A DNA stretch of 64,000 bases from Chitinophagales bacterium. GTDB taxonomy: Bacteria > Bacteroidota > Bacteroidia > Chitinophagales > JADJOU01. A program made the translations under genes and the position numbers. The notes below the pieces were generated by a model that saw nothing but the letters and a program-made list of their open reading frames with translations, was not told the origin of the DNA and did no database searches. Position 1 is the stretch's first letter. Each line of letters starts with the position of its first letter. Below, piece after piece: positions 50,363 through 55,739 of this stretch. The DNA lies in NCBI GenBank assembly GCA_016787225.1, contig JAEUUY010000030.1:1-64000 (forward strand), read 5' to 3'.

Positions 50363-50380
50363 TAATTAATCAAAACATTG

Positions 50381-50388
50381 TATATTTG
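50381..50388 (+). promoter_or_regulatory. Bacteroidota -7 element of the hip operon (TATATTTG)
   Basis: An exact TAnnTTTG match, 27 bases before the hipB ATG at 50408. A TTTG at 50353-50356, inside palindrome 1, may act as the -33 element at a slightly long spacing. Confidence 0.5.
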
Positions 50389-50403
50389 TACCATAAATGA
50401 TAT
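50388..50403 (+). promoter_or_regulatory. Operator-like palindrome 2 of the hip operon
   Basis: GTACCATAAATGATAT matches palindrome 1 at 11 of 16 positions, keeping both arm cores (TACCAT and ATGxTAT-like). It overlaps the predicted transcription start, as expected for an autorepressor site. Confidence 0.45.
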
Positions 50404-50407
50404 AAGT

Positions 50408-50638
50408 ATGAAAGAAAATCTAACCAATTTAAGTTTACATATCAAACAAAAACGGAAACAAAACAAGCTAACTCAGCCAGAACTGGCTATGAAAGCTGGT
50501 GTAGGACTGCGGTTTGTTAGGGATCTGGAACAAGGCAAATTGTCCTTACGAATGGATAAAGTAAACGACGTACTCCGACTATTTGGCGAGGAATTAGGTC
50601 CAGTGCATATGAATAGAGAAAAATTATTAAATAAATAA
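50408..50638 (+). CDS. hipB: HipB-like XRE-family antitoxin/repressor
   Basis: The 76-residue protein is a single helix-turn-helix domain: IKQKRKQNKLTQPELAMKAG, then VGLRFVRDLEQGK. This is the XRE/HipB type, which binds the toxin promoter as a dimer. The ATG at 50408 is preferred to a TTG at 50378, because it leaves the -7 box and the second palindrome outside the gene. It is followed 2 bp later by the HipS-like gene. Confidence 0.88.
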   Translation: MKENLTNLSLHIKQKRKQNKLTQPELAMKAGVGLRFVRDLEQGKLSLRMDKVNDVLRLFGEELGPVHMNREKLLNK

Positions 50639-50640
50639 AT

Positions 50641-50967
50641 ATGAATAGGAGTGGAAAAGTCTTATATAAAAATAAGTACTGTGGTATCATTTATGAAAAT
50701 GAAGAGGGGTATTATTTTCAATATGATGAAGACTATTTAAAAGCTGAAAAATCAGAGCCAATTAGTATGACAATGCCACTGCAGGCTGAAACTTATGAAA
50801 GCAAAACGCTCTTTTCTTTCTTTGATGGTCTCATACCAGAAGGTTGGCTGCTCGATATAGTAGAAAAAAATTGGAAGATAAATTATAGAGATAGAATGGG
50901 TCTCCTGCTGACGTGCTGTCAAGATACCATAGGAGCTATAAGTGTAATCAAAAATGAAGAATTATAA
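50641..50967 (+). CDS. HipA N-terminal-domain protein (HipS-like)
   Basis: The 108-residue protein corresponds only to the N-terminal subdomain of HipA: GKVLYKNKYCGIIYENEEG, FSFFDGLIPEGWLLD, and a terminal DTIGAISVI. In the tripartite HipBST system of E. coli O127 this fragment is a separate protein, HipS, which neutralises the kinase HipT, reportedly through a tryptophan that enters the active site. Trp69 in PEGWLL is the likely counterpart here. It overlaps the kinase gene by 14 bp. The antitoxin role is inferred by analogy. Confidence 0.85.
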   Translation: MNRSGKVLYKNKYCGIIYENEEGYYFQYDEDYLKAEKSEPISMTMPLQAETYESKTLFSFFDGLIPEGWLLDIVEKNWKINYRDRMGLLLTCCQDTIGAISVIKNEEL

Positions 50968-51976
50968 GAAGAAATTTTTAGCAAGAAACCAAAACGCAGA
51001 GCGTGTAGAAGAGGCTGCTTTATTTTATGGGAGACGCTGTCTGCATTGCTATGAGCCATTGCATGAGCAAGATACCTACTTGCATCAAGCATGCAATAAA
51101 CGCTTTTATGGACAGCTGCATACGCCACAATTAAAATATAAACTTTCAAATCTCCAAGACCTCGCGACACAAGTGATACAAAGTCAAATGGCAGTCACAG
51201 GCGTACAAGCGAAGGTATCGCTAAGTTTGCATCGAAAAGAAGATAAAAATTGGGTCAAAAAACTAACTATAGTAGGACTCTATGGCGACTACATATTAAA
51301 GCCACCTTCCGAGTTTTATAAGCAGCTCCCCGAGCTAGAGAGTGCGACTATGCATATGGCGAATGTATGCGGTATAGCCACAGTTCCGCATAGCCTTATC
51401 TATCTCGAGGATGGGACACTCTGCTATATAACTAAGCGTGTGGACAGAACACGTCAGGGTAAGCTGCATATGGAAGACATGTGCCAGCTCTGCGAACGCA
51501 TGACCGAAGACAAATACAAGGGCAGTCATGAACAAGTCGCTAAGCTAATATTGAAATACTCCTCATCGCCACTTCTTGATGTCAGTAATTTTTATGAGCA
51601 AGTATTGTTTAGTTTCTTCACTGGAAATGCTGATATGCATTTGAAAAATTTTTCCCTCTTGGAAAAAGAAGGACAGGGTATGAGTCTCAGTCCAGCTTAT
51701 GATTTAGTCCCAACTGCCCTAGTCAATCCCAAAGATCCTGAAGAGCTCGCCCTTACACTCAATGGCAAAAAGCGAAAATTGAACTACAATGACTTTCTCT
51801 CTGCCTTTGAGAATAGTGGACTTGGGAAAAAAGTTCTTGACAATACCCTCGAGTTATTTCAATACGCTCTACCTGAAATGAAAACCGTCATAGATAAAAG
51901 TTTTATGACTAGTGAACTGAAGTTAGAATACCAAAAAACTCTAAAGCATAGGTATAAGCAATTGGGGATAGGATAA
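50954..51976 (+). CDS. HipA-family Ser/Thr kinase toxin (HipT-like)
   Basis: The 340-residue protein has a short N-terminal cysteine/histidine cluster (CLHC ... HQAC), a Gly-rich ATP loop VTGVQAKVSLSL (residues 81-92), the catalytic-loop motif GNADMHLKNFS near residue 225 and the metal-binding SPAYDLVPT. It lacks the HipA N-terminal subdomain, which is the separate gene before it. HipA kinases inactivate glutamyl-tRNA synthetase; HipT of E. coli O127 targets TrpS. The target here is unknown. The gene is visibly richer in G+C than its surroundings (33 of 60 bases at 51301-51360). Confidence 0.88.
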   Translation: MKNYKKKFLARNQNAERVEEAALFYGRRCLHCYEPLHEQDTYLHQACNKRFYGQLHTPQLKYKLSNLQDLATQVIQSQMAVTGVQAKVSLSLHRKEDKNWVKKLTIVGLYGDYILKPPSEFYKQLPELESATMHMANVCGIATVPHSLIYLEDGTLCYITKRVDRTRQGKLHMEDMCQLCERMTEDKYKGSHEQVAKLILKYSSSPLLDVSNFYEQVLFSFFTGNADMHLKNFSLLEKEGQGMSLSPAYDLVPTALVNPKDPEELALTLNGKKRKLNYNDFLSAFENSGLGKKVLDNTLELFQYALPEMKTVIDKSFMTSELKLEYQKTLKHRYKQLGIG

Positions 51977-53114: not shown

Positions 53115-53732
53115 TTAGTACATAATTAGCTTAATCATAGGAAGTGTTTCATCTCCATTGTTTGTGCAAGGGGATCCTAGACTCATAACACTAGCTATCA
53201 TTGTCAGACTGCCGAATGAGCGAGGATAAGGAATTAGTGAACTACTTGGATGCTTGTAATGCAGAAAACTATGATGATAAGAAGGTGCAGGATTGGTCAA
53301 AGAAACAATAACAATATAGACATTCCCAGGAGTTAAAGTGACAGGAGTTGTCAGATTGTGCCATGCGAAATTTTGCATTACTTGACTTCCAGTATATACT
53401 AAAGTCATACCACCACTTGCGTTCACTTGTAGGATTTGAATCTTGTATGGATTATTAGTAGCGAAAGCACTATCATTTCCCTGAAATCCCACAGAACATA
53501 GTGTCTTGTTGGCTGTTACTGCAAAGTCGATTCTCTTTTCTACACATCCTGTGATGGACTCTATTTGATAGCCAAGCGAGCCTAGTCCGCTCCATATATT
53601 AGAAGTTTCATTGCTAGCATTATCCACGCATGGTGATGGCGGTAGAGAATTGGAGCAGGAAGTCAATACTAGCATATAACTTAATGCAAATACAACTGCC
53701 ATGAGAAATAATTTGAATTTCAATTTGAACAT
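53115..53732 (-). CDS. Putative secreted lipoprotein with DUF4082-like beta domain
   Basis: The 205-residue protein has a lipoprotein signal (LVLTSC, Cys near residue 26). The rest is a beta-rich domain: ESITGCVEKRIDFAVTANKT ... NPYKIQILQVNASGG ... LTPGNVYIVIVSLTNP. The 'NPYKIQIL' and 'LTPGNVYIV' strands resemble jelly-roll domains of the DUF4082 kind. Two cysteine pairs may form disulfides. It is preceded by element copy A. Function unknown. Confidence 0.6.
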   Translation of the reverse strand: MFKLKFKLFLMAVVFALSYMLVLTSCSNSLPPSPCVDNASNETSNIWSGLGSLGYQIESITGCVEKRIDFAVTANKTLCSVGFQGNDSAFATNNPYKIQILQVNASGGMTLVYTGSQVMQNFAWHNLTTPVTLTPGNVYIVIVSLTNPAPSYHHSFLHYKHPSSSLIPYPRSFGSLTMIASVMSLGSPCTNNGDETLPMIKLIMY

Positions 53733-53756
53733 AGAAAAAAATTAAATGGAAAAAAG

Positions 53757-53796
53757 CCTACTCGGTTATTTATACTCGTTTTTCGGCAGGGTCGAG
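53757..53796 (-). repeat. Shared intergenic element, copy A
   Basis: On the minus strand this 40-base element reads TCG-N7-CGAAAA, then CGAGT, and ends in CGAGTAGG followed by a T run. It matches copy B at 36 of 40 positions. It lies 24 bases before the start of the lipoprotein gene at 53732. The whole family has four copies, each before one small secreted-protein gene. Confidence 0.75.
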
Positions 53797-53805
53797 CGAA
53801 GCAAA

Positions 53806-54291
53806 TTACTTTAGAAGTGTTACATGACCGACATAATCATGCCTTCTTAAGCTAATTGACATGCGACCTTCTTTACCTTTGACTAATTTAAATTGTCCAG
53901 GTTTTATTACGATATTGCCATCTAAATTGCTAACTTTTAAGTCTGTTTTTAAAAGTTCACTTAACTTAGAATCTAACATAACGTTATGCGAAATTGTCAG
54001 TACATTTTTGTTCAACATTTTTGCAAATCGCTTGTGAAAATCTGCAGGAAGGGTCACTATAATGTCGCCATTTTCTGTTGCTTCAAAAATAAATAAATCC
54101 GAACGATTTATTCCTACTTCCATATACATTGTCTTGCACCAGTGCCAACCAGGATCGCAAATCATGGTTCCATCTGACTTATAATTTGGTGTTCCTTGCC
54201 CTGCCAAACCAAATCTCGGAGCTGCGAATACACTAACAATGGACACTGTTAGAAATACGATTAATGAATACAATTTTACTGTTTTTTTCAT
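53806..54291 (-). CDS. Small secreted protein of unknown function
   Basis: The 161-residue protein has an N-terminal signal peptide (ends SVFAA), a short segment with two cysteines (ICDPGWHWCK), a mixed region and a beta-rich C-terminus. No family was recognised. It is the second of four small exported proteins in a row and is preceded by element copy B, which suggests shared expression with its neighbours. Confidence 0.6.
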   Translation of the reverse strand: MKKTVKLYSLIVFLTVSIVSVFAAPRFGLAGQGTPNYKSDGTMICDPGWHWCKTMYMEVGINRSDLFIFEATENGDIIVTLPADFHKRFAKMLNKNVLTISHNVMLDSKLSELLKTDLKVSNLDGNIVIKPGQFKLVKGKEGRMSISLRRHDYVGHVTLLK

Positions 54292-54317
54292 TTTAAATAA
54301 TTTTTAGTTTAAAAAAG

Positions 54318-54357
54318 CCTACTCGATTATTTAAACTCGTTTTTCGGCGTGGTCGAG
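54318..54357 (-). repeat. Shared intergenic element, copy B
   Basis: Same structure as copy A (TCG-N7-CGAAAA, two CGAGT steps, GAGTAGG, then a T run). It lies 26 bases before the start of the gene at 54291. The flanking AAAAAAG on the plus strand is also shared with copy A. Confidence 0.75.
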
Positions 54358-54372
54358 ATTTACTTTAGATTT

Positions 54373-54783
54373 CTATTGTTTTGGCTTAATATCATGATTC
54401 ATGTGTAATTCTTGCCTTCTAGGATTGCAATCTGGTGCTACCAAATTCCATTGCATTGTACCCCCACCTGGCTTATGTAGCATGGTACCATTGATATCTA
54501 CAATTGATACATTGTAGGTAGCTCCTGTTGTAAGGTTCAAGCTTGGCGTATTATAGGTAGTACTAGCGATGGGGCCGAATTTTTGGTCATAACTGCCAAA
54601 ATTTGTGACTCTAACCCATGCTCCAGTATTGCCAGTTGACTTAACCTCAACAAAGGTCGATGTCCCCAATCTCACATTACATCTAAATTTGATGGTTTCA
54701 ACATTGAAGTTTTTGTTCAATGCAAATGAAAAAAGGAGAACTGAAGCTATTAATACTGTGATTGGCATGATAATTTTTTTCAT
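54373..54783 (-). CDS. Small exported protein of unknown function
   Basis: The 136-residue protein has a hydrophobic N-terminal signal (residues 5-22), a beta-rich centre (FVEVKSTGNTGAWVRVTN ... YNVSIVDINGT) and two cysteines that could pair (FRCNVRL and APDCNPRR). No family was recognised. It is preceded by element copy C. Its size and export signal match those of its neighbours although the sequences are unrelated. Confidence 0.55.
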   Translation of the reverse strand: MKKIIMPITVLIASVLLFSFALNKNFNVETIKFRCNVRLGTSTFVEVKSTGNTGAWVRVTNFGSYDQKFGPIASTTYNTPSLNLTTGATYNVSIVDINGTMLHKPGGGTMQWNLVAPDCNPRRQELHMNHDIKPKQ

Positions 54784-54819
54784 AATTTGAAATTTAATAT
54801 TTTGTAATTTTAAAATGTA

Positions 54820-54864
54820 CCTACTCTGTTTATCTTGCTAAGAAACGATTTTCGGTTAACTCGA
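54820..54864 (-). repeat. Shared intergenic element, copy C (degenerate)
   Basis: On the minus strand: TCG-N7-CGAAAA, a 22-base spacer, then GAGTAGG. The two ends are conserved but the spacer differs from copies A and B. It lies 37 bases before the start at 54783. Confidence 0.6.
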
Positions 54865-54875
54865 TACACTTACTT

Positions 54876-55502
54876 TTACTTGGAGAGTTTTAAACCAGAT
54901 TCATCATAGACTTCAAACTTAGGAACGCCAGCACCACTTGAATTTTTGGCAATTCCACTTACAGGATTATTAAACTTAACCCAAAAAAGGCCAGGTTGGC
55001 AATTATTTGAAAAACAATTTGGACTTGGTTCACTGGCTACAGACACTTTAAAACAATAAGTTTCTCCAACCTGAAACCATTTGCCCTGTAATGAAGGATT
55101 TGCCTCTGCTGCTACACAGTATGCATTTGACCCAAACTGGACATCACCAATTGCTTCATTACCAGTTTGAAATATATACCATTCCGTACATACATATTTT
55201 GGATTACTAGGAGGAATACCAGGAGCATTTACCTTAAAAACTTCGTAGGTAACTACAAATTTTTTTCCAGGACATAACTGCATAAGGTACTTGACATATG
55301 CTGAAAGTTTATTTTTAAACGCATTTGTGGGTTTAAACGTTAAGTAGTAAGGAGACAAAATGTTCCCTGGATTTTGTTCAGTCTTAAATAAATTTTGGTA
55401 GATATCATCCTTTATTATGGGAGGGCAACATGTGTTTGGATTTTGTGCTGAGGTGACTTGAATAAATAATACTGTTATTATAATTGCTAAATTTTTTTTC
55501 AT
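54876..55502 (-). CDS. Secreted cysteine-rich protein of unknown function
   Basis: The 208-residue protein has a signal peptide ending at TSAQ and about eight cysteines (NTCCPP, QLCPGK, YVCTEW, AYCVAA, TYCFKV, NCFSNNC). They suggest disulfide bonds in the periplasm or outside the cell. The C-terminal segment FEVYDESGLKLSK may be a short surface-attachment strand but is not a clear T9SS signal. It is preceded at some distance by element copy D. No family recognised. Confidence 0.6.
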   Translation of the reverse strand: MKKNLAIIITVLFIQVTSAQNPNTCCPPIIKDDIYQNLFKTEQNPGNILSPYYLTFKPTNAFKNKLSAYVKYLMQLCPGKKFVVTYEVFKVNAPGIPPSNPKYVCTEWYIFQTGNEAIGDVQFGSNAYCVAAEANPSLQGKWFQVGETYCFKVSVASEPSPNCFSNNCQPGLFWVKFNNPVSGIAKNSSGAGVPKFEVYDESGLKLSK

Positions 55503-55586
55503 TTCGTTAAAATTTAAAAGTTTAAAAATTTATTTTTTACCCCTATCTTATTTTACTTTTAAAAGATAGTGAATTTTGTTTTTTAT

Positions 55587-55617
55587 CCTACTCTGCTCTC
55601 GTGTTTTCGGATACCGA
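55587..55617 (-). repeat. Shared intergenic element, copy D (short)
   Basis: On the minus strand: TCGG-TAT-CCGA followed by AAA, a 10-base spacer and GAGTAGG. It lies 85 bases before the start at 55502. Spacer lengths in the four copies are 16, 16, 22 and 10 bases. Confidence 0.55.
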
Positions 55618-55739
55618 CGCTGGCTTTTTTAAAGTTTGTCAGGAACTTGTTTACATTATCACATGCTATCCGGATTTGCTTATGACTTTGTAATTATTTG
55701 TACTGCAAAACTATCTCATATTATTACCCTTGTAAATCC

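Follow-up and report, generated by a model that had tools for sequence, protein, structure and literature searches.

A predicted RNA pseudoknot leader, related to the Rfam DUF805b/DUF805 clan, before four orphan exported-protein genes of a Chitinophagales bacterium

Four neighbouring minus-strand genes raise the question of why small exported proteins that do not resemble one another should each be preceded by the same intergenic element, and of what that element is. The window analysed was a stretch of 64,000 nucleotides, positions 1 to 64,000 of contig JAEUUY010000030.1. The initial annotation reported four minus-strand copies lying 24-85 bases before exported-protein genes, and all four were found in place: element A at 53756..53797, element B at 54317..54357, element C at 54819..54863 and element D at 55586..55619. 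The genes behind them, on the same strand, encode a 205-aa lipoprotein-type protein with an LTSC lipobox (53115..53732, ATG 24 nt past the GAGTAGG of A) and exported-type proteins of 161 aa (53806..54291, 26 nt past that of B), 136 aa (54373..54783, 36 nt past that of C) and 208 aa (54876..55502, 84 nt past that of D, an atypical distance). All four N-termini were of export type according to a simple N-terminal heuristic.

The four products matched no Pfam or NCBIfam family and had none in common, in agreement with the earlier view that they are otherwise unrelated. Convincing homologues were absent from 60 other genomes of the order (3 from the genus); the 205-aa protein had no homologue there, and the 136-aa protein showed one marginal partial match (24%, E 9.7e-4) in another family. 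The proteins of all four genes are thus orphans as far as these searches reach. A neighbouring 454-aa protein likewise had no match in the other genomes of the family. Elsewhere in the window, adjacent plus-strand ORFs of 86, 108 and 340 aa (50378-51976) gave matches to couple_hipB and to the N-terminal domain of couple_hipA, plus a weak one to a HipA-family toxin; together they look like a three-part HipBST-type toxin-antitoxin system.

The two "conserved ends" of the initial annotation are the two strands of a predicted pseudoknot, in which the loop bases xCC pair with the GGy that follows GAGUA. A stem, S1, of 3-5 pairs closes a 12-nt loop with a CCGAAAA end in all four elements, with one mismatch beside the loop in A, B and D, and a second helix, S2, is formed by xCC and GGy in each. 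In element A, S1 joins 5' GCTCG (53797-53793) to 3' CGAGT (53778-53774), with one A.A mismatch before the 3' strand, and S2 joins 5' GCC (53787-53785) to 3' GGC (53758-53756), so that x-y is G-C; GAAAA (53784-53780) and the CGAGTA ahead of the S2 3' strand are unpaired. Element B, also G-C at x-y, has CTCG (54357-54354) and CGAG (54339-54336) with one A.A mismatch as S1, and GCC (54348-54346) and GGC (54319-54317) as S2. The strands of element C are CGA (54863-54861) and TCG (54848-54846) for S1 and ACC (54856-54854) and GGT (54821-54819) for S2, giving an A-U pair at x-y together with a long L3. Element D combines CGT (55619-55617) and ACG (55602-55600), with one C.C mismatch, and TCC (55611-55609) and GGA (55588-55586), so that x-y is U-A. 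The TCG taken earlier for a conserved 5' end is not homologous among the copies: it belongs to the variable 5' strand of the stem (CTCG, CTCG, CGA and CGT), and the TCG of copy D is out of register. What the initial annotation took for a "spacer" of changing length proved to be the 3' strand of the stem together with a flexible loop.

Folding of A-D as single sequences was no better than that of shuffles (z-scores -0.7 to +0.3) and gave the structure no support, so the fold is visible only in comparison across species. In a raw list of 142 elements, the bases before CCGAAAA and after GAGTAGG were G-C in 98, T-A in 17, A-T in 16, C-G in 1 and G-T in 7, with three exceptions, two of which look like chance pattern matches. 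The bases x and y therefore change together, which indicates that xCC pairs with GGy, crossing S1. About 140 homologous elements were gathered from the order, and 112 of them were aligned without the window copies (alignment A3). On A3, 98.5% of cells were paired, compared with 71.4% after shuffling; the covariation score was 0.651, compared with at most 0.101 when the partners were slid; and x-y occurred in all four Watson-Crick types (GC 83, UA 15, AU 12, CG 1, other 1).

Since CC and GG were fixed by the search pattern, relaxed variants with a valid S1 were examined. At C2-G1 these were CU/AG (U-A) in 9, CU/GG (U.G) in 14 and CG/CG (G-C) in 1 (L154), and at C1-G2 UC/GA (U-A) in 1 (L209), the C1-G2 compensation and the G-C type of C2-G1 being single variants each; a mismatch alongside two intact pairs was seen in only four cases, CC/AG in 3 and CC/GA in 1. 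A further copy in the bacterium's own genome (L208, G000 C23:34579) and its orthologue in a second genome (L215, G001 C86:1563) have CCGAACA where other copies have CCGAAAA, and AAAGTAGG where those have GAGTAGG. Their S1 strands, ACGG/CCGT and AAGG/CCTT respectively, differ by a compensated change, and they precede orthologous 219-aa proteins, of which the one behind L208 is related to a metal-independent carbonic anhydrase family. An RNA structure, one of the options named in the initial annotation, accordingly has support from strong covariation.

The four window elements are real and not chance occurrences. The pattern CGAAAA-N8..24-GAGTAGG was observed 4 times in the window, compared with 0.02 expected from shuffles. 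The 2.96-Mb genome held 7 matches including the four of the window, and the other three, inside or antisense to ORFs and without full xCC/GGy pairing, look like chance. As the bare pattern yields such matches (these three in the genome, and up to 18 of 87 viral sequences read among the matches listed), both S1 and S2 were needed for a copy to count as true. The covariance model R1, built from A3 with three S1 pairs only and with the window copies left out, was the further check proposed earlier, and it ranked C (E 1.2e-4), D (E 1.1e-3), B (11.5 bits, E 0.13) and A (10.9 bits, E 0.22) as the first to fourth sites of the window. Elements A and B are weak alone; their S2 pairing, their position and their mutual identity (43 of 47 bases, where 36 of 40 had been claimed) make the case firm.

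Searches against Rfam related the elements to a catalogued group. The families RF02914 (DUF805b) and RF03081 (DUF805) both belong to clan CL00115 and are uncharacterised Cis-reg motifs of Bacteroidota. With cmscan at permissive thresholds, RF02914, whose gathering cut-off is 35.6 bits, reached 21.7 bits (E 0.0038) on C and 15.1 bits (E 0.7) on D, both below the cut-off, and A and B were not reported. The best RF02914 match of the bacterium's own genome (31.7 bits) begins 58 nt before a gene with a DUF805-like product. RF03081 had no match in the region, nor in the own genome at E 1e-4, and neither the further 5' hairpin of DUF805 nor a score of more than 51.1 bits was found; no Rfam riboswitch matched in the region. 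All four other genomes of the genus had RF02914 matches (E 0.01), three of them above the cut-off, and some of these copies form tandem series ahead of genes for small exported proteins (G002 contig 12). DUF805b was found in at least 160 of 249 genomes of the order (E 0.001) and DUF805 in at least 62 of 249 (E 1e-4), with one genome of the same genus (G001) among the carriers, while across the phylum DUF805b occurred in at least 106 of 395 genomes (E 1e-4), all three counts being lower bounds because stricter filters were applied. Elements A-D are therefore, at these sub-cut-off scores, divergent relatives within clan CL00115 and not formal DUF805b members. The element is thus "unexplained" only in part, being kin to catalogued families.

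Position, and not the kind of product, was the constant feature among host copies. Elements with both S1 and S2 lay within 120 nt upstream of an ATG ORF in 156 of 166 cases, and the distance from element end to ATG in unique host cases had a median of 23 nt (middle half 21-28); the distance to the upstream gene was broad, and most homologous copies were solitary. Export-type downstream genes numbered 101 of 150 in hosts, compared with 105 of 308 background genes from the same loci (Fisher p 2e-11; simple N-terminal heuristic). A T9SS sorting domain was present in 12 of 126 host downstream genes; 5 were DUF6520, and others were TM2, DUF805, lectins and the like.

Several host loci had arrangements of their own. 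Two complete elements stand in tandem about 34 nt apart before a single gene in L060, L118 and L120, and further doublets, partial ones in which the upstream copy is a GAGTAAGC or GAGTACGG variant, occur in L135, L147 and L154. In L059:690-1730, three short tandem ORFs each have their own element, and at least two of the products carry leaders of the GG type ahead of short cores (e.g. ...KVGLKHIRGGNDG), resembling RiPP precursor peptides. In L092:440-2450 an array of four elements, similar to that of the window, precedes small exported proteins of related genes, at least two of them paralogous. The canonical element was also found in metagenome-assembled genomes labelled Lysobacterales (L242) and Thermoanaerobaculia (L249), and these contigs may be mis-binned Bacteroidota.

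In IMG/VR, at least 120 viral stretches matched in a scan for the element. Of 87 read among the matches listed, 69 have S1, and x was G in 69 of 69; among those listed without S1, x was G in 8 of 18. As y is fixed as C in the viral set, S2 predicts x = G, which fits the S1-bearing copies. Unique viral copies among the matches listed had a median of 23 nt to the ATG, and the genes behind them encode, among others, HTH regulators as well as HNH endonucleases. An export-type N-terminus was seen in only 5 of 52 downstream proteins among the listed viral matches, so the association with exported proteins drawn in the initial annotation stands as an enrichment in hosts and not as a defining property: export is not the rule, and position relative to the start codon is. 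The cultured Flavobacterium phage lillamy9-1 (NC_048835.1 12779-12815, L376) carries an unannotated element that takes up the 59 nt separating gp40 from a ParB-like gene, and this, together with the motif, indicates that the viral contigs apparently come from Bacteroidota phages.

The surroundings of many copies leave no intercistronic room for a promoter. Elements C, B and A start 9-15 nt past the preceding stop codon (about 15 nt for B), and promoter room would therefore exist only within the preceding gene. The same lack of room was seen in lillamy9-1 and in 21 of 51 viral copies with S1, among the matches listed, which start at most 11 nt past the upstream stop.

On balance, we regard it as probable that the element is a small RNA pseudoknot leader, a divergent form of the DUF805b/DUF805 clan, that acts on the translation initiation of each cistron. 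S1, of 3-5 bp and free sequence, closes the 12-nt loop with its xCCGAAAA end; the flexible linker after S1 then returns (A/C)GAGUA-GGy, and xCC and GGy form S2. The conserved nucleotides left over, GAAAA and AGAGUA, would offer a recognition surface, and the knot ends about 23 nt before the AUG, immediately ahead of the mRNA segment that an initiating ribosome covers. From that position we infer an action on initiation, cistron by cistron, given also that the spacing is common to unrelated host and phage genes, that the placement is intercistronic and that initiation in this phylum depends on mRNA structure. Bacteroidetes mRNAs are without Shine-Dalgarno sequences; mRNA structure tunes their initiation, and pairing is low between -20 and +20 (PMC6847099); the knot lies just outside this low-pairing stretch. 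Because phages use the element too, its recogniser would be general to Bacteroidota hosts: the 30S subunit, for instance, or some conserved RNA-binding protein. Positive or permissive control appears more likely than repression, since phages place the element, sometimes several times over, ahead of genes of their own. What the comparisons show is the fold, the kinship with the clan, the spacing, the use by phages and the orphan state of the proteins; the effect on translation, its sign and the recogniser are inferred.

The AUG spacing itself fits repression, riboswitch control, processing and enhancement equally. How Bacteroidota ribosomes choose or favour mRNAs is an open question (PMC6847099), and the element might be a phylum-wide Shine-Dalgarno-independent enhancer, a pseudoknot recruiting or positioning the 30S subunit about 23 nt before the AUG, in hosts for lineage-specific secreted proteins and in phages for genes inside operons; this is a tentative proposal that we would not expect to hold. 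Less probable again is an orphan riboswitch, in which the pseudoknot would bind a small metabolite or a second messenger and thereby regulate a set of genes for surface and secreted proteins. Such regulons are controlled by c-di-GMP (GEMM) RNAs in other systems. Features that agree with this reading are the unchanging loop nucleotides, the covarying stem of variable sequence, the compact H-type fold, the presence of several copies in one genome, the tandem doublets, and the abundance of T9SS cargo and of small exported proteins among the downstream products; the lack of a coherent metabolic theme, the viral copies before HTH regulators, endonucleases and a ParB-like gene, and the absence of a recognisable expression platform, such as a terminator, on the coding strand close to A-D speak against it. 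We give slightly less credence to a site at which a repressor protein or an sRNA would bind in trans and coordinate the genes, the element itself not being an enhancer. The conserved unpaired GAAAA and AGAGUA and the many unlinked copies per genome would suit such a site, as would the global RNA-binding proteins of Bacteroidota, e.g. RbpB (PMC11697453), yet phages with several copies would thereby put their own genes under a host repressor.

An mRNA processing or stability element, with the knot shielding a 5' end or marking a cleavage site that separates cistrons, is improbable: the intercistronic placement in the window and in phages speaks for it, but stability alone demands no 23-nt distance to the AUG. 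A processive antitermination RNA (put-like) acting on RNA polymerase would account for the copy inside a phage operon and for the tandem doublets and is nevertheless very improbable, since put-like RNAs act from the transcript start and need no fixed distance to a start codon. The simple sigma-factor site that the initial annotation argued against is disfavoured here too. Although the elements stand immediately upstream of genes, a site acting as DNA (promoter, sigma or regulator box) is hardly credible given the crossing covarying pairs with free stem sequence and the fixed AUG distance, and no promoter motif was enriched at a fixed upstream place, the Bacteroidota -7 box TAnnTTTG included. 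Least credible of all is a recombination or gene-cassette boundary with an attC-like single-strand DNA fold, the mobile arrangement suggested earlier; tandem orphan genes of one orientation, separated by a folded site, would agree with it. The element keeps its distance to the downstream ATG and not that to the upstream gene, so that the distances expected of an integron-type cassette site were not found, and most copies are solitary. Sequence of the A/B type was absent from every other genome of the species collection, and no relatives with single units gained or lost at the element were found, the window genes being without homologues.

The leader acting on initiation thus remains our preferred reading, and shared control of the four window genes is plausible. 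Start-codon placement in phages and hosts alike suggests a switch or booster of protein synthesis. Clan CL00115 is already catalogued in Rfam. As far as could be checked, the new observations are the sub-threshold, divergent series of four elements in front of orphan exported genes; the pseudoknot of three pairs with its compensatory changes, of which an earlier description is possible; and the start-codon spacing common to DUF805, DUF805b and viral copies, together with the presence in phages. The DUF805 motifs were reportedly described by Weinberg in 2017; the literature search found no paper naming them as RNA. A pseudoknot at one start-codon distance in 160 of 249 genomes of the order and in many viral contigs is a testable candidate for an mRNA-selection signal or a new riboswitch class. 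For an Rfam motif that takes its name from a single downstream gene and has stayed uncharacterised, this provides a definite structure, whose base pairs are open to mutation and restoration. It also points to genes possibly under common control, among them orphan secreted proteins, T9SS cargo and phage genes.

Compared with known systems, the window elements are closest to DUF805b, with which they share the sequence of parts (a short stem, a 12-nt loop with CCGAAAA at its end, a linker and AGAGUAGG) and the placement shortly upstream of a start codon, D being atypical in its distance. The 3' consensus follows a short linker with GAGUAGG in all four, and A and B have C for its first A, as do the homologues L051, L106 and L159. 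They differ from DUF805b in their S1 sequences, in the mismatch beside the loop of three copies and in an interval of up to 22 nt from CGAAAA to GAGTAGG, and the nested DUF805b model printed by cmscan is without the pseudoknot S2. DUF805 has the same 3' half (CCGAAAAgCC...GAGUAGG), mostly 19-24 nt ahead of the ATG, but also an extra 5' hairpin (GUGGAGACCAG...CCAC) that is missing in the window copies, and its x-y pair is not kept, often being A.A (ACC/GGA in 9 of 22 copies), so that S2 there consists of 2 bp and wobble variants only. The riboswitches preQ1-I and SAM-II are compact H-type pseudoknots with A-rich loops near a start codon, as is the element; unlike them, it has no Shine-Dalgarno strand in S2 and no known ligand, and its conserved letters are others. 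The leader of phage T4 gene 32 contains a pseudoknot that sets translation as an autogenous repressor site, a role that distinguishes it from the present element, and the two are alike as pseudoknots placed upstream of a phage start codon.
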